Shown: positions 13,958 to 21,408, counted from the stretch's first letter. The stretch is 64,000 nt of DNA from Novosphingopyxis baekryungensis DSM 16222 (GCF_000420305.1 NZ_ATUR01000003.1:62001-126000); one strand, 5' to 3'. Notes: generated from the letters alone by a model not told the origin. A program made the numbers and translations.

Positions 13958-15241
13958 ATGAACGACATCGCCAAGCTGGACCTGAAGGGCGAGACCCATG
14001 AGTTTCCCGTGTTGCAGGGCACCGAAGGGCCAGACGTCTTCGATATCCGCTCGCTCTACGGCAAGTCGGACATGTTCACATTCGATCCGGGCTTCAAATC
14101 CACGGCGAGTTGCGAGTCCGGCCTGACGTTCATCGACGGCGACGAGGGCGTTCTTCTCCACCGCGGTTACCCGATCGGTCAGCTGGCGGAGCATTCCAGC
14201 TTCATGGAAGTCTGCTATCTCCTGCTGAACGGTGAACTGCCGGACGGCAAGGAACTCGAAAAGTTCAGCTGGACGATTTCGCGCCACACAATGCTGCACG
14301 AGCAGTTGCGGCAGCTGTTTTCCGGCTTCCGCCGCGATGCGCATCCCATGGCGGTCATGTGCGGCGTGGTCGGCGCACTCAGCGCCTTTTATCATGACAG
14401 CACCGATGTGAAGGATCCGACGCATCGGATGATTTCCAGCCATCGTCTGATCGCCAAGATGCCGACGATTGCCGCCTGGGCCTATAAATATTCGATCGGC
14501 CAGCCCTTCGTCTATCCCGACAACAGCCTGTCCTATACCGGCAACTTCCTGCGCATGACCTTCGGCGTGCCTGCAGAACCTTATGAGGTCGATCCGGTGA
14601 TCGAACGTGCGATGGACCGGATTTTCATTCTCCATGCTGATCATGAGCAGAATGCTTCGACGTCAACGGTGCGGCTCGCCGGTTCGTCCGGCGCCAATCC
14701 TTTTGCCTGCATCGCGGCGGGCATCGCCTGTCTGTGGGGCCCCGCCCATGGCGGCGCCAATGAGGCGGCGCTCAACATGCTCAAGGAAATCGGTACGCCG
14801 GACCGCATTCCGGAATTTATCGAGCGCGCGAAGGACAAGAACGACCCGTTCCGCTTGATGGGCTTCGGTCACCGCGTCTACAAGAACTACGATCCGCGTG
14901 CGACCGTGATGCAGAAGACCGTCCGCGAAGTCTTCCAGGCCATGAACGTCAAGGACCCGGTGTTCGATGTTGCTCTGCAGCTCGAGGAAATGGCGCTTAA
15001 CGACGACTATTTTCAGGAAAAGAAGCTTTTCCCGAACGTCGACTTCTATTCGGGCATCATCCTGTCAGCGATTGGCTTCCCGACGTCGATGTTCACCGCG
15101 CTGTTTGCCCTCGCGCGAACGGTCGGCTGGGTTGCGCAGTGGAACGAGATGATTTCCGATCCAGGCCAGACCATTGGTCGTCCGCGTCAGCTCTACACAG
15201 GGCCGAAGCAGCGTGACTATGTCGGGTTAGACAAACGCTAA
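13958..15241 (+). CDS. gltA: Citrate synthase
   Basis: Condenses oxaloacetate and acetyl-CoA at the entry of the TCA cycle. The 427-residue type-II (Gram-negative hexameric) enzyme carries [31 protein letters not shown] with a catalytic His, [14 protein letters not shown] with the second His, and DFYSGIIL with the catalytic Asp. CGGAGAA precedes the ATG by four bases. The 247-base leader region holds two hairpins. It converges on the kinase-like gene at 15279, with a shared hairpin terminator between them. Confidence 0.98.
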
Positions 15242-15267: not shown

Positions 15268-15293
15268 CTCCTCCCGGTTCAGGCCGGGGGGAG
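15268..15293. terminator. Bidirectional hairpin terminator between gltA and the kinase-like gene
   Basis: CTCCTCCCGG-TTCAGG-CCGGGGGGAG makes a 10-bp GC-rich stem (one G-T pair) with a 6-base loop. The loop holds the stop codon of the minus-strand kinase-like gene, so that gene's last codons are part of the hairpin. On the minus strand it is followed by CAAATTTG. On the plus strand there is no T-run, so termination of gltA may be weaker. Confidence 0.6.
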
Positions 15294-16610
15294 TATCAAC
15301 ACAAAACGCGCCCCGACCTCCGATCCGTCGACCATCAGGTCGCCGCCCATGGCTCGGGCAAAACGACGCGAGATATAGAGGCCAAGGCCGCTTCCGCCAT
15401 CGGCTGAACGTCCCAACCGCTCGAACTTCTCGAAAACATGTTCGCGGTTTTCTTCGGCAATCCCGTCTCCCTGATCCTGCACAATGATGGCCGGGTTGCC
15501 GTCGATGATGGCGGCATCGACCGTCACGATTGTTCCATCGGGTGAATAATTGACTGCATTGCCAATCAGATTGACGACGATTTGAAGAACGCGTTTATAT
15601 TCGCCAGTCGCGGCCAGGCTATCGACCTCTCCCGGCGTCTGGATGGCGATGCCATGATCGGCCGCGCGAACAGCGAGCAGGCCGGCGGCGCGGCGGGCAA
15701 GCTCGCAACAATCGATCCGCTCCACGTCGAGCCTGAAACCGGGATGCTCGACAGTCTCCAGATCGCCGAAATCCTCGACCAGATCACGCAGATGTCGCGC
15801 GGCTGAAGCGATATCGCGCGCATAGGATGCGTAATTTTCACGCAAAGGCCCCCGCAAGCGCCCGTGAATGGTTTCGGCATTGGCGATGATGCGGCTGAGC
15901 GGCTGTTTCAGATTGGGGGTAACAAGCTGGGTCGGGGACGGCGGTGCTTCCGCCTGGCCCGGCGTGACGCTCGCCTCCGCTATCTGACAGAGATAGCCAC
16001 TGAATTCGCCTTTGCCCGAAAGCAGTGGCTGCCCGGCCAGCATCACGGCGCAGCCGTTCACCTTCGCAGCCTGGGCCTTGAACGCCTGCCGCTCCGCCAC
16101 GGCTTCCAGCAACGGAAAGCTGGCTGGCGGCGCAGTCTGAAGCTGCGCCCATTGGTTCAGCGCCTGTCCGATGTCCGGCTGGCCGATCCGCGTGTTCGGC
16201 AGCGCGCCGCTGATGGCCAGCACCCGCAACGCTGCATCCAGTTGCAGCTTCATTCCCGGCTGATGGTCAGACATGTCCAGGCGGAAACGCGGCGTCTCCA
16301 GCAGCGCATCGTCCCGCTCGCGTTCCTGCCACCCGGTGATCCGGATCGTTACCGATTCCTGATCGGGGGCCGTTTCCACGAGCAGCCGGTGGTCGCAACG
16401 CTCGTCGCTCACCTGAATCGTCCGGGCCAGTTTCATGCCCAGCGCCGCGCTGGATTCGCACAGGGCGCGCAGCGCGGGAAGCGCCAGGATTCCGCCGTCC
16501 TCGCCACCTGCCTGCCGGTGCAGTTCCAGCAAGGCGACATCCGCTTCCATCAGCAGACCGTCACTGGTGCACCGTCCGCAGATCGGTTCGCTCAACTGTT
16601 TTTCACGCAT
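15279..16610 (-). CDS. Histidine-kinase-like protein lacking the phosphoacceptor His
   Basis: A 443-residue soluble protein with a kinase-type C terminus. It has an N-terminal unknown region with CGRC, a PAS/GAF-like middle part (about 170-220), a DHp-like helix (about 230-285) and a HATPase_c domain. The ATP site looks intact: N box NLIGNAVNYSPDG, G1 DQGDGIAEE and G2 GGSGLGLYISRR. Where kinases have SHELRTPL this protein reads TPNLKQPL, with Pro (about residue 232) at the His position, so it should not autophosphorylate there. The ATG at 16610 overlaps the upstream gene by eight bases; a TTG at 16616 is also in frame. Last gene of a four-gene unit. Confidence 0.8.
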   Translation of the reverse strand: MREKQLSEPICGRCTSDGLLMEADVALLELHRQAGGEDGGILALPALRALCESSAALGMKLARTIQVSDERCDHRLLVETAPDQESVTIRITGWQERERDDALLETPRFRLDMSDHQPGMKLQLDAALRVLAISGALPNTRIGQPDIGQALNQWAQLQTAPPASFPLLEAVAERQAFKAQAAKVNGCAVMLAGQPLLSGKGEFSGYLCQIAEASVTPGQAEAPPSPTQLVTPNLKQPLSRIIANAETIHGRLRGPLRENYASYARDIASAARHLRDLVEDFGDLETVEHPGFRLDVERIDCCELARRAAGLLAVRAADHGIAIQTPGEVDSLAATGEYKRVLQIVVNLIGNAVNYSPDGTIVTVDAAIIDGNPAIIVQDQGDGIAEENREHVFEKFERLGRSADGGSGLGLYISRRFARAMGGDLMVDGSEVGARFVLILPPA

Positions 16611-17532
16611 CGCCAAAGCCCGATCCGGTTGCCGCGATCAACGCGCGAGCGGCTTTTTTCGACACTTCCTTATAATGGGTGAGATCCGGCACGCGGTCGG
16701 TCGGCGACAGCAGATCGGCGATGCCCTGCGCTTCCGATCGGCGAAAAGCGGCAGCGCGCAGCAACAGCATCAAACGCGCGCCGCCCTCGCCCAGCATCAG
16801 AACGACATCGTGCCAGGAGCAGCCCAGTTCCGAGGCAAGATAGCCTGCAAATAGGTCCAGACCTGCATGGACCGGATCCCTCAGTTCTTCGAAATTCTCA
16901 TCACGGGCCAGCTGTACGGCCAGCCGCGCGGACAAATAAGGAAGCCCCGCCGCTTCGTCATGCGCGGCCAGCAGCGTGGCGACGTCATGGGCGCGGTGCG
17001 GATCCGCCTTGTCACTACTGAGCAGTGCCGCGTCAATCTGCCGCACGAGATGCCGGAATATCGGCGCCGGCAGGTCATATCGACCGGACAGCCGTTCCTC
17101 GACCGTCCGGCTTCGCGCGGACAGCAGGGAAAAGATGCTCTCACTGAGCAACTCGTCATCATCGTCGATATGGCCGGAAAGCCAGACATTGGACCGCTGC
17201 CAGAGAGGCGCCGGCAATCGCTGGCCAAGCCGGAGCCAGGCCGCGTGCGCCATCAGGAATCTGAAGAGCGGCGGATGGTCGAGCAGCCGGCTGCGCTCGA
17301 TAATCGGCCAACTAAGACCGGGTTCTTCGCCCGTAAGATCGGCCTCTATCGCGTTGACCAGCGTAAACAGGATCGCGCGGGCGCTGGCCACGGTCGCGTC
17401 TTCCAACGCAATCTGGGACCGGGGAAACAGGCGCGCCGCGAGATCGGCCTGCAAAGCGGGCTGTTCACGCTCGATGCGCTCCGCTTCACGCAGCGGATGT
17501 TCCAATGGCCGTTGGCCGTCTGACACGATCAT
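16603..17532 (-). CDS. Unknown helical protein, weakly DUF2336-like
   Basis: I do not firmly recognise this 309-residue protein. It is predicted soluble, almost wholly helical and rich in Leu, Ala and Arg. Repeated segments such as LFRFLMAHAAWLRLGQRL and IFRHLVRQIDAALLSS recall the helical-repeat proteins grouped as DUF2336 in alphaproteobacteria; that match is tentative. It lies in one unit with the Hpt-like and membrane-protein genes upstream and the pseudo-kinase downstream (eight-base overlap). A TTAA-N7-TTAA box lies 40 bases before its ATG, so it may also have its own promoter. Confidence 0.7.
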   Translation of the reverse strand: MIVSDGQRPLEHPLREAERIEREQPALQADLAARLFPRSQIALEDATVASARAILFTLVNAIEADLTGEEPGLSWPIIERSRLLDHPPLFRFLMAHAAWLRLGQRLPAPLWQRSNVWLSGHIDDDDELLSESIFSLLSARSRTVEERLSGRYDLPAPIFRHLVRQIDAALLSSDKADPHRAHDVATLLAAHDEAAGLPYLSARLAVQLARDENFEELRDPVHAGLDLFAGYLASELGCSWHDVVLMLGEGGARLMLLLRAAAFRRSEAQGIADLLSPTDRVPDLTHYKEVSKKAARALIAATGSGFGDA

Positions 17533-17571
17533 TGCCCTGCTAGAAAGAAGCCCGGCTATAGGAAAGTGATG

Positions 17572-17586
17572 TTAATTTGGCTTTAA
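17572..17586. promoter_or_regulatory. Exact CtrA-type box (TTAA-N7-TTAA)
   Basis: TTAATTTGGCTTTAA matches the full CtrA consensus TTAA-N7-TTAA of alphaproteobacteria. It overlaps the stop codon of the membrane-protein gene and lies 40 bases before the ATG of the gene at 16603-17532, where an internal promoter could be. Such AT-only half-sites are rare in this GC-rich sequence. Binding is inferred. Confidence 0.5.
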
Positions 17587-18717
17587 GGCTGTGCGCTTGC
17601 GGCGATGCGAAACCCATCGTTCAGTAACGAGCGCCGCCAGACAGGCAAGGCTGGTAACGCCGATCGCCATCGGTCCCGCCAGGAGGCTGGCGATCATCAG
17701 GATCAGGGCCACCACCGGCAAGATCGGCACGATCATGTCCCAACGCCCGTCGAACCGGCGATCGGCACATAAGGCCGCCGACAGAACCAGAACGGCGCAT
17801 GCGATGATGGATATATCCGCGCGGCGCGACAGAAGAAGAACGGCCGCTGCCACCAAGCCAAGGCCGGCCGCGCTTCGCCAAGGCACGCCGCGATGATCCC
17901 GGCGATCCGGATCGATGCGTTCCAGCGCGCGATCCCCCGCAAGGGCCATGATCGCGGCCAGCGCCCCCCATGTGATCGACCCCATAGCCCCGCCCACGGC
18001 AGCCAGAAGCGCTGCTGCCAGCGGCAGATGCAGCAACGGCCATCGGGCAGCCGGTTTGCGCCGCATCAGGAGCAGCACGCCGCGCGCGATGGGCGCGGTG
18101 ACGAGCCGGTCGAACCAATGCGCCGACGGACTGCCGCCCACGGCTGCACGTTCGATCTGTCGCGCACCCTCCTCATTCGAAACGCGCACGGGCATGGGGT
18201 GCGACGATGCCTGTTCGCTGTCGATCCCGCGTGCCCCATCCTGCGTGAGCTGACGCAGCAGCGTGGATGCGACATCCCAGCTTTCCGGCAGATCGGCCCC
18301 ATCCGATACAGCGCGTCTGCCGAATGTGGCCACCCCGCCCCAGAAATGATCCCGGTCGAGCCGTTCCCATCCGCTATGTTCGGTCACCAGAACGGCTTTG
18401 TCGAATTGTTGAACAAATGCGAGCGTCTCCGCGCTGATCCATGCATCAGCTGCCACCAGCACAAGCCGTGCCTCCACCGGCAAGACGGCGTCCAGTTCTG
18501 CCAGCGTGCGGTGGTAGGACGCGCCTAGCCCTCTGCTCTTGATCAGATCGACCAGACGCGCAGCATCCGTCGCCGGCAGATCGCCGACCAACAGAAAACG
18601 GCGTACGCCGCTGCGCTCCAGCCCGGTGACCAGATGCTCCACCAGTGAACGTCCAAGAATCGATGGCTGCGCCGACGCTTGTCCAGTTACAAGCGCCAGG
18701 ATTGCAAACTTTTCCAA
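17572..18717 (-). CDS. Unknown fusion: Rossmann-like N domain plus multi-pass membrane domain
   Basis: A 381-residue protein of unknown function. Residues 1-110 alternate strands and helices (FAILALVTG, RRFLLVGDLPAT, RLVLVAADAW) and look like a sugar-nucleotidyltransferase-type or Rossmann fold, but without a clear nucleotide motif. Residues 205-375 hold about five membrane helices after DRLVTAPIARG. The layout recalls fusions of a nucleotidyltransferase to a CDP-alcohol phosphatidyltransferase, but the motif DxxDGxxAR of that enzyme is not seen (ALAGDRALERIDPD instead). TTG at 18717 follows GGAGG by five bases; a GTG at 18753 is in frame without such a site. Confidence 0.65.
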   Translation of the reverse strand: MEKFAILALVTGQASAQPSILGRSLVEHLVTGLERSGVRRFLLVGDLPATDAARLVDLIKSRGLGASYHRTLAELDAVLPVEARLVLVAADAWISAETLAFVQQFDKAVLVTEHSGWERLDRDHFWGGVATFGRRAVSDGADLPESWDVASTLLRQLTQDGARGIDSEQASSHPMPVRVSNEEGARQIERAAVGGSPSAHWFDRLVTAPIARGVLLLMRRKPAARWPLLHLPLAAALLAAVGGAMGSITWGALAAIMALAGDRALERIDPDRRDHRGVPWRSAAGLGLVAAAVLLLSRRADISIIACAVLVLSAALCADRRFDGRWDMIVPILPVVALILMIASLLAGPMAIGVTSLACLAALVTERWVSHRRKRTALKPN

Positions 18718-18776
18718 ACCGGCCTCCGCCCGCTCCCCTAAAGCGCAGAGCACGGGCTTGCAATCGCGGTGCGCCC

Positions 18777-19082
18777 TCAGGCCGGATCGACCGCGCTGTT
18801 TACGGCTATGGTCAGCTCCCGAAGAACCACTGGATCACCAGGAGCGCCATCGGCTGCCTCTTCGGCAAGCGCCTGAATTTGCGAAGCGCCGAAGCTTGCG
18901 GCAATGCCTTTCAGGCGCAGCGCCGCGTAAAGCCAGTTGGCGTCGCAGCGCGCGCGTTGCATCAGATCGATCTGACGCCGTGCGCTGTCGCCAAATGCTT
19001 CGCGCAGCTGCGCGACCAGATCCTCATCCTGGCCGACAGCTTGGGCCAGCGCGCTCTCCAAAGCTCCATGGTCATAAGACAT
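18777..19082 (-). CDS. Hpt-like domain protein lacking the phosphorylated His
   Basis: A 101-residue, all-helical single-domain protein with the shape of a histidine phosphotransfer (Hpt) domain. The diagnostic helix reads YAALRLKGIAASFGA, against the usual AHRLKGSxxxLGA, so Leu55 replaces the phosphorylated His while the following L-K-G and the G-A are kept. It therefore cannot act as a normal phosphorelay carrier at that site. It is the first gene of the minus-strand unit ending at 15279 and is divergent from the TipN-like gene, 88 bases apart. Confidence 0.75.
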   Translation of the reverse strand: MSYDHGALESALAQAVGQDEDLVAQLREAFGDSARRQIDLMQRARCDANWLYAALRLKGIAASFGASQIQALAEEAADGAPGDPVVLRELTIAVNSAVDPA

Positions 19083-19107
19083 GGAAGCGTCTCTACATCA
19101 TGCAGGC

Positions 19108-19144
19108 TTAACTTTGCGTTTCGATCCCTCCGGGTTATGGTTAA
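19108..19144. promoter_or_regulatory. Divergent promoter region with CtrA-like half-sites
   Basis: Between the Hpt-like gene and the TipN-like gene (19083-19170) two TTAA half-sites stand out: TTAACTTT from 19108, and ATGGTTAA at 19137-19144, which reads TTAACCAT on the minus strand, a known strong CtrA half-site form. Neither makes a full TTAA-N7-TTAA box (the first is followed seven bases later by TTTC). Weak evidence, strengthened only by the full box at 17572. Confidence 0.3.
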
Positions 19145-19170
19145 CCCCAGTTCTTGAGGGGGTCGCGGGC

Positions 19171-21408
19171 ATGGCCATCAGCGCAAATGAAGATGTTTAC
19201 GACGCGGATCCGGCCGCCGAATCGCCTGTGATGGGCGACCATGCAGTCGAGTCGGCTGCGGAATGGATTGAGGACGAGCCCGAGCCGGCATCGATGATCT
19301 TGCCGATCGTGCTCATCGGCCTGGCAGCCGCCTGGACCGCCTTCTTCATCTTTGCCCAGTTCGAAAATCTGCAGGCCCGCCCCGGCGCCAGTCAATCCGC
19401 GGACCTGATCGTGCAATGGGCGGTTCCGCTCCTGCTGATCGGCATGATCTGGCTGCTGGCCATGCGCACCAGCCACCGCGAGGCCCGGCGTTTTGCCGAT
19501 GTTTCCGGGCGCATGCAGGACGCAGGCGCCGCGCTGCAACATCGAATGCAGGCGGTCAATAACGAGATCAGCCTGGCGCGCGAATTTCTTGCCGAACAGG
19601 CCCGCGAACTCGACATGCTGGGGCGGACGCGCGCCCGCGATATCCGCGAGGCGGCGCAGAGCATCGAACATGCTTTTGCGGAAAGCCAGCGCCAGGCCGC
19701 CAAGCTCGACGAGGTGAGCCAGGCCGCGAACGGCAATCTGGAGCGGCTGCGCAATCATCTGCCGGTGGTCACCAGCACGGCCAAGGACGTTACCAACCAG
19801 ATCGCCACCGCAGGCGAAGGCGCGCGGATTCAGCTGGACGCACTTGTAAGCGGGGCGGCCGCGATCGAAGAAGCGACGGAACGGCTGGGGGCTGCATCGG
19901 ACCGTTTGCATGAACGGTCATCCAACGTCTCCGAAGCGATCGACGAAAACAGCGCTGCAAGCGAGCGGCGGCTCGCTGATTTCCTGCAGGATGCCGAAGG
20001 GGCGGCGGCGCAATTGTCCAGACATCTTCAGGCAAGCATTGCGGACCTCCTCGCAAGCCTGGACGACAGCGCAGAGCGGCAGCGCCGTCTTGCGATGGAA
20101 TCGGCCAGTACCTTGCAGGCGCGGCTGTCAGAGCTCGATAACCGGATCAACGATGTGGCCGAGCGGGGCGGCGAACAAGGCGAACGGATCGTGCGTCTGT
20201 CGCGCGAGATCGAGGAAAGCGCCGAGCGCGCTCGGGCGCGTATCCATGAGCTGGACGAACGGGGAAGCGAAGCCACCGCGCGCATTGCTTTTGCGATCAA
20301 GGCGGCGCTGGACAACAGCGATGCGCTGAGCGCGAAGATCGAGCATAATGACGATGGCCTTGCCGCGCTTCAGAACCGCCTCGCTGCGGCGCACGAGCTG
20401 ATGGCCGCGATCGAACAGCTGGGTGATGACCGGCTGTTGCCCAGTGTCGAACGGGTGTTGGGCAAGATCGACGAGACCAACGACCGCGGTACCGATCTCA
20501 GGACGCTCATCGAGCTGATCGATGTCAACAGCCATGGCGTACAGGATCGGGCGGTCGCCTTCGGGGATGTACTGTCGCAGCAGCGCGAACTCATCGACGG
20601 GCTGAACGAGGATAGCGCGGCCGCCTTTACCGAACGGCGTGAAGACAGCGCAGCACTCGAACAGGCTTTGATGGAGGCGCGCGGCGCTTTGCAGCGGCTG
20701 GCCGAAGACGTCGAGGCGCGGCTTTCCGCCAGCGTGGAGCAGGTGCGCGATCGTTCCATCGAAGCCGCCGATCACGCACGCAGCGCGCTGGACGGCGTGG
20801 TCGAGACCACTGCCGACAATCTGCGCCAGCGGACCACGGAAACGCTGGAACATGCCGTGACCGAGCAGATGGAGGCTGGTGGAGAGCGCTGGAACGCCAT
20901 GGTTGCCGCAGCACTTCACCAGTCCGATGAAACCACGAAATTGCTGGAAGAGCGCCTGGCCAAGCTGGACCAGATGACCAGCAACCTAGAGGTCCGTCTG
21001 GAACGGGCGCATGAGCAATTCGAAGGGACGGACGACGATGCCTTTGCACGGCGTGTGCTGATGCTGACCGAATCCCTGAATTCAACCTCGATCGACGTGG
21101 CGAAACTGCTGTCCAACGACGTGACGGATCCGGCCTGGGCGGCCTATCTGAAAGGCGATCGCGGCGTCTTTACGCGGCGTGCGGTGCGGCTTCTGGATGC
21201 CGGCGAGGTCCGCATCATTGCGCAGCATTACGAGGAAGATCGCGAGTTCCGAAACCAGGTGAACCGCTATATCCACGATTTCGAGAGCATCATGCGCAAC
21301 CTGATGAGCACGCGGGACGGCAGCGCGATCAGCGTCACCCTGCTCTCTTCCGATGTCGGCAAGCTATATGTCGCGCTGGCGCAGGCAATTGAGCGGCTCA
21401 GGGCCTGA
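19171..21408 (+). CDS. TipN-like polarity protein (two membrane helices plus long coiled coil)
   Basis: A 745-residue protein with an acidic N-terminal tail, two membrane helices (about 42-62 and 78-97) and a long coiled-coil stretch (about 100-640) rich in Glu, Arg, Ala and Leu. The compact C-terminal domain contains AYLKGDRGVFTRRAVRLL, NRYIHDFESIMRNLMSTRD and LLSSDVGKLYVALAQAIE. This order matches Caulobacter TipN, the new-pole marker that positions flagella and division proteins; the family call rests on layout and my memory of the C-terminal domain. ATG at 19171 follows GAGGGGG; the frame is open further upstream. Confidence 0.75.
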   Translation: MAISANEDVYDADPAAESPVMGDHAVESAAEWIEDEPEPASMILPIVLIGLAAAWTAFFIFAQFENLQARPGASQSADLIVQWAVPLLLIGMIWLLAMRTSHREARRFADVSGRMQDAGAALQHRMQAVNNEISLAREFLAEQARELDMLGRTRARDIREAAQSIEHAFAESQRQAAKLDEVSQAANGNLERLRNHLPVVTSTAKDVTNQIATAGEGARIQLDALVSGAAAIEEATERLGAASDRLHERSSNVSEAIDENSAASERRLADFLQDAEGAAAQLSRHLQASIADLLASLDDSAERQRRLAMESASTLQARLSELDNRINDVAERGGEQGERIVRLSREIEESAERARARIHELDERGSEATARIAFAIKAALDNSDALSAKIEHNDDGLAALQNRLAAAHELMAAIEQLGDDRLLPSVERVLGKIDETNDRGTDLRTLIELIDVNSHGVQDRAVAFGDVLSQQRELIDGLNEDSAAAFTERREDSAALEQALMEARGALQRLAEDVEARLSASVEQVRDRSIEAADHARSALDGVVETTADNLRQRTTETLEHAVTEQMEAGGERWNAMVAAALHQSDETTKLLEERLAKLDQMTSNLEVRLERAHEQFEGTDDDAFARRVLMLTESLNSTSIDVAKLLSNDVTDPAWAAYLKGDRGVFTRRAVRLLDAGEVRIIAQHYEEDREFRNQVNRYIHDFESIMRNLMSTRDGSAISVTLLSSDVGKLYVALAQAIERLRA

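Follow-up and report, generated by a model that had tools for sequence, protein, structure and literature searches.

Five open reading frames (ORFs) are present at positions 15279 to 21408 of the window, the whole 64-kb stretch of DNA that was analyzed. The original prediction described four minus-strand genes as one tight unit divergent from a TipN-like gene, and the ORFs, internal gaps of 22 and 39 nt, and an overlap at the kinase-like gene K bear out this arrangement. The genes and the features discussed below are as follows.

15279..16616, minus strand: K, kinase-like, 445 aa from TTG; an ATG two codons on is the likelier start
15378..15572, minus strand: N-box, G1, and G2 ATP-site motifs of K, conserved in core orthologs
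15915..15917, minus strand: Pro234 codon of K, the site of the phospho-acceptor His, as aligned with His-bearing kinases
16603..17532, minus strand: helical DUF2336-like gene, 309 aa, overlapping K by a few nt
17572..17586, plus strand: CtrA-type box TTAATTTGGCTTTAA, the sole TTAA-N7-TTAA in the window
17572..18753, minus strand: R, 393 aa
18777..19082, minus strand: hpt, 101 aa
18918..18920, minus strand: Leu55 codon of hpt (AALRLKG), the site of the Hpt phospho-acceptor His
19081..21408, plus strand: tip, longest ORF 775 aa; 745 aa from the ATG at 19171, a possible start
20989..21405, plus strand: C-terminal domain of tip, common to GPR/RgsE-size and TipN-size proteins (hhalign)

The CtrA-type box lies ~40 to 54 nt upstream of the start codon of the DUF2336-like gene, and 0.07 occurrences of TTAA-N7-TTAA are expected in a 64-kb window. 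A search of 68 loci recovered a box within 200 nt upstream of the DUF2336-like gene in 4, all near relatives (background, 0.002 per 200 nt), and none beyond them. A full box inside the unit had been predicted; it is present in the window, but its placement is kept in near relatives only and is not a family-wide feature.

Gene order around tip is conserved in relatives, the commonest family order being comEC(-), gltA(+), K(-), DUF2336(-), R(-), hpt(-), tip(+), DUF1467(-), and rnj(-). Among 99 family loci, tip is adjoined by K in 73, by R in 83, and by hpt in 73; K and R occur together at tip in 69, and K, the DUF2336-like gene, R, and hpt are all there in 55. This adjacency is retained across most of ~80 genera, and since it recurs in most family genomes, the arrangement exceeds chance. 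We infer that the sampled family is that of the sphingomonads, as the scaffold C-terminal end of Sphingopyxis locus L241 nearly matches those of family members L042 and L049. The block is split in several g2 and g6 genomes, where K and R, together with the DUF2336-like gene if one was detected, lie away from hpt-tip, mostly at gltA, and hpt-tip is still at rnj; one g2 genome (G039, locus L201) has the whole block in one place. Of the 99 family loci, 26 yielded no hpt; K and R are retained in many of these. The prediction of a single polar unit of five genes thus agrees with their adjacency in most family loci but not with the separable K-DUF2336-R block, and given both the splits and the loci in which hpt was not found, the five proteins need not form one complex. 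Because K-DUF2336-R can part from hpt-tip, hpt-tip is tied to the pole on firmer grounds.

A citrate synthase gene at window positions 13958 to 15241 adjoins K, and gltA occurs in 71 of the 99 family neighborhoods. A genetic selection in Caulobacter that started from a tipN cpdR background yielded citA (PMC7083601); the parallel with gltA beside K may be chance.

The tip product has two hydrophobic N-terminal transmembrane (TM) segments (residues 73 to 91 and 109 to 127), a long coiled coil, and a conserved C-terminal domain. A match to the apolipoprotein-like helical repeats of PF01442 (E = 2.7e-5) is under the Pfam cutoff. The C-terminal domain was recovered in 98 of 100 family genomes and in 95 of the 95 good ones; its predicted fold (AF2 pLDDT, 67) had no Foldseek match. 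In profile-profile comparison (hhalign), it matched Rhizobiales proteins of GPR/RgsE size (A2 versus A9; probability, 99.8; E = 2.8e-29) and Caulobacteraceae proteins of TipN size (A2 versus A10; probability, 96.1; E = 3.5e-9), the GPR/RgsE and TipN identities being assigned by size, topology, copy number, and order rather than from named sequences. The Rhizobiales proteins are ~1,700 to 2,340 aa long with two TM segments; the Caulobacteraceae proteins, found in 23 of 30 genomes (E < 1e-4) whose Caulobacteraceae label rests on a DivJ model, are ~820 to 1,200 aa long with one or more predicted TM segments. Two N-terminal TM segments were seen in most of the Rhizobiales and Caulobacteraceae members that we looked at. 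The predicted similarity of the 745-residue protein to TipN therefore has a counterpart in the Caulobacteraceae proteins of TipN size and topology, but by profile the window scaffold is nearer to the GPR/RgsE-size proteins. Similarity between GPR and TipN has been stated previously (PMC8546619), and published work places both GPR/RgsE and TipN at the pole (PMC8262873, PMC7327166, PMC4460556).

Beyond the family sample, a ShpA-type Hpt gene adjoins the scaffold gene in 60 of 100 loci (L179 to L187 and L208 to L287 among them, with a few genomes included twice) and is divergent from it in all 60. A regular expression found the acceptor His in 51 of these 60, one of which (L280) is a false match, and six more keep it by eye, with an altered lysine in Hoeflea and Chelativorans. 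The His is lost in two Rhizobiales-type loci, L270 (1675 to 2151; VVQTLRG) and L283 (1866 to 2246; VVRTLYG), so loss may have occurred more than once. No Hpt gene was found beside the scaffold gene in 20 Caulobacteraceae loci. Judging from gene order, the divergent ShpA-type Hpt is probably an old genetic partner of the scaffold across Alphaproteobacteria; we found no paper in the open-access literature naming this pair.

The window Hpt matches PF01627 at 4e-4, with Leu55 in place of the phosphorylated His. Its fold is kept, as predicted: the AF2 model has a pLDDT of 93.7, and the nearest PDB folds are Hpt proteins, with weak Foldseek E values. The family profile matched 2ooc, which carries the name ShpA in its PDB title, at 1e-18 (next structure, 3e-7). 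Loss of the His, likewise predicted, extends to 67 of 72 family sequences, which have L, M, W, Q, and others instead; the five that retain it are L129, which belongs to the core, and L134, L139, L160, and L162.

K carries a HATPase_c domain (PF02518, 2e-21) and a weakly matched HisKA domain (PF00512, 1e-5) and has no TM segment. Its H-box reads VTPNLKQPL, with Pro234 where the His belongs, and its N-box, G1, and G2 (GSGLGL) lie at residues 349, 381, and 408, so that it lacks the acceptor and retains the ATP-binding boxes as originally described. Among 71 core orthologs, none is counted as having the acceptor His (column: P in 50, A in 7, R in 4, others in the rest); the K of L133 does show a His there but in RIDHSFKPSI, without the motif, and by judgement we scored it as a loss. 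All 71 core proteins carry the G1 Asp, the GxGLGL residues, and the second N-box N; 70 have the first N, and 68 have the F-box Phe. The H-box Pro is kept in 70 of the 71, and the H-box Glu is replaced by V or A in 65. Acceptor His in 0/71 alongside ATP residues in 70 to 71/71 means that selection holds the ATP pocket past the loss of the acceptor, and this combination has the pattern expected of a putative nucleotide-binding pseudokinase.

His275 in DHp helix 2 (70/71) was considered as a substitute acceptor and set aside, because His-bearing kinases conserve it too. The sequence following the H-box prompted the suspicion that K is specially related to DivJ/PleC/PdhS, but this was unproven, as best NCBIfam matches differ: DivJ for the window K and one basal kinase, TorS for another basal kinase. 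A kinase at the position of K in g6 loci L042, L043, and L049, and also in L119, was rejected as a His-bearing K ortholog; it is a different protein whose ATPase domain is degenerate, and those g6 genomes have their true K at another place. The 432-aa neighbor in the same g6 loci, a candidate for R, is a TPR protein. The second kinase-like protein near hpt-tip (L042, 2239 to 3897, minus strand; L043; L049; L119) keeps its His (HELRSPLNAI) and has lost its ATPase motifs, the reverse of the situation in K.

K and the DUF2336-like gene overlap, with a median gap of -4 nt in 67 loci. The product of the latter, called an unknown helical protein in the original prediction, has no Pfam match of its own, and profile searches with it or with R alone gave nothing useful. 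Basal orthologs gave the names. Those of the helical protein, tied to it by position and an iterated family profile, match DUF2336 (PF10098) at 2e-52 and 5e-63; the protein remains helical but can now be read as a diverged DUF2336 relative. A basal R ortholog matches PF01066 (1e-8), the IPCT-DIPPS model NF041135 (1e-10), and PDB 4o6m (6e-8). The CDP-alcohol motif D..DG..AR, present in R at five mostly basal loci (L126, L134, L137, L140, and L167), is lost in window R and in the family core. What was described as a Rossmann/membrane fusion is a fusion, more specifically a predicted decayed nucleotidyltransferase-like and CDP-alcohol phosphotransferase membrane fusion. R and the DUF2336-like protein both diverge fast. 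In basal genomes, an intact second CDP-alcohol phosphotransferase gene is divergent to R (L134, 7326 to 8150; L126, L137, L140, and L167), which suggests an inositol-lipid type cluster.

Rooted trees place the His losses of K and Hpt both near the family base. The tip C-terminal domain tree (105 rows) needs a minimum of one change for the K His and two for the Hpt His, and joint K/Hpt states are absent/absent in 57, His/His in 3, and absent/His in 1; a concatenated tree of 99 loci gave the same change counts. Several deep forks are poorly supported, so the exact branch of the losses is approximate. Basal genomes G331 and G265 have a full SHELRTPL kinase with a His-bearing Hpt, and a His-bearing kinase was found in basal G305 and G053 and a His-bearing Hpt in basal G309. 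The losses extend to nearly all family orthologs, as anticipated, but basal lineages keep both His residues and the core L129 Hpt has its own. L126 retains the R motif with a dead kinase, showing that the losses were not all simultaneous. Because the losses lie near the family base and core orthologs are conserved, K and Hpt are best described as old, retained pseudo-enzymes rather than products of decay, a description drawn from alignments and trees.

Basal loci also differ in what surrounds these genes. In L202, genes that read by sequence, not by profile, as an inositol-phosphate synthase and a nucleotidyltransferase lie between DUF2336 and R, and in L203 a receiver-Hpt protein and flgK/flgL-like genes lie between hpt and DUF2336. 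Family-search flgK matches were obtained in L203 and near tip or K of G305, G309, and G053; the flgK-like gene of the window genome sits elsewhere and scores under the model cutoff.

The reading that we prefer, at roughly even confidence, is a polar scaffold of the TipN/GPR(RgsE) type, anchored in the membrane, with phosphate-blind, ATP-gated docking partners. In the family core, Hpt, the neighboring PAS-type histidine kinase K, and the CDP-alcohol phosphotransferase R were stripped of catalytic residues early and retained. K would bind ATP without forming phospho-His and, as a dimer gated by nucleotide, could serve as the platform on which its translationally coupled DUF2336 partner docks; receiver domains or the scaffold would dock on the pseudo-Hpt, whose surface would be phosphate-blind; R would anchor to the membrane; and the whole assembly would act at the cell pole with tip. 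The original idea of a polar scaffold using dead phosphorelay modules thus keeps its homologies, His losses, and ATP pocket but not a single five-protein complex, as the block is separable.

That separability feeds the strongest alternative, which we consider possible but somewhat doubtful: hpt-tip is a polarity pair, and K-DUF2336-R is an independent gltA-side operon, for example in envelope-lipid or metabolic sensing, with an inherited, nonfunctional adjacency. In several g2 and g6 genomes, K-DUF2336-R is coherent, mostly with gltA, yet distant from hpt-tip; many genomes with K and R have no hpt found; and R derives from an inositol-lipid type enzyme, with basal L202 seeming to carry inositol-phosphate genes. 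However, adjacency persists in most of the ~80 genera, and the K and Hpt losses fall near one stem, as expected of partners. A less probable alternative is that K is not catalytically dead, its ATPase domain passing phosphate in trans to another protein, either the His of a partner kinase or a receiver, much as Rhodobacter CheA4 phosphorylates CheA3 in trans. Retention of the N-box, G1, F-box, and GxGLGL residues in 68 to 71 of the 71 core proteins would suit such a role, but the H-box Glu is also gone, the co-encoded Hpt lacks its His, and His275 is no evident substitute, being equally present in His-bearing kinases. Functionless drift of relics from a lost flagellar or lipid locus, to which the flgK/flgL-like or inositol-lipid-like genes at the same place in basal loci and the fast divergence of R and the DUF2336-like protein might point, is very improbable given frames open in most genomes, the core ATP pocket (70 to 71/71) and H-box Pro (70/71), and the recovery of strong K orthologs from 33 of 36 family genomes.

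Returning to the docking scaffold, the early His losses and the almost invariant ATP pocket suggest that sphingomonads converted relay proteins into ATP-binding docking parts. More tentatively, TipN/GPR landmarks across much of Alphaproteobacteria may have a dedicated ShpA-type partner that reads or controls the pole, and sphingomonads would have turned this phosphorelay into a scaffold-bound docking module that is blind to phosphate and gated by ATP. Flagella and growth zones are positioned by pole markers, TipN and GPR among them, and the class-wide Hpt-scaffold pairing names a concrete candidate partner, through which signaling may reach them, to examine in Agrobacterium or Sinorhizobium. 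With phosphate chemistry removed and the proteins kept, the locus in sphingomonads amounts to a natural experiment that makes docking separable from phosphotransfer.

Several known systems share parts of this locus. Plant AHP6 is a pseudo-Hpt and, like the window Hpt, has the Hpt fold without the His; kinship is limited to the fold, and here the protein is bacterial and encoded beside a scaffold gene. DivL and other His-less kinases share with K a kinase fold without the acceptor His and a cell-cycle or polarity setting, but K has Pro (or Ala) rather than Tyr at the acceptor and no TM segment and is nearer to HK853, the nearest solved kinase (1e-20), than to DivL 4q20 (2e-12). Basal R proteins resemble IPCT-DIPPS/AF2299 CDP-alcohol phosphotransferases in fusion architecture and in the D..DG..AR motif, whereas that motif is gone from window R and the family core. 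In the Caulobacter ShkA-ShpA-TacA relay, ShpA is the best solved relative of the Hpt family and shares its fold, but the window Hpt lacks the acceptor His and the locus lacks ShkA and TacA. Caulobacter TipN, at 882 aa (PMC13170164), resembles tip in size and in its two TM segments; it is more distant than GPR, with a weakly similar C-terminal domain as seen in Caulobacteraceae proteins chosen by size rather than in C. vibrioides TipN itself and with no Hpt found alongside in the 20 loci. Compared with Agrobacterium GPR and Sinorhizobium RgsE, the sphingomonad protein is ~745 to 900 aa rather than ~2,100 and its Hpt lacks the His, but tip shares with them two N-terminal TM segments, a long, possibly apolipoprotein/SMC-like coiled coil, a C-terminal domain (37% identical to that of GPR/RgsE-size Rhizobiales proteins), and, in many Rhizobiales loci, a divergent Hpt gene likewise adjoining.
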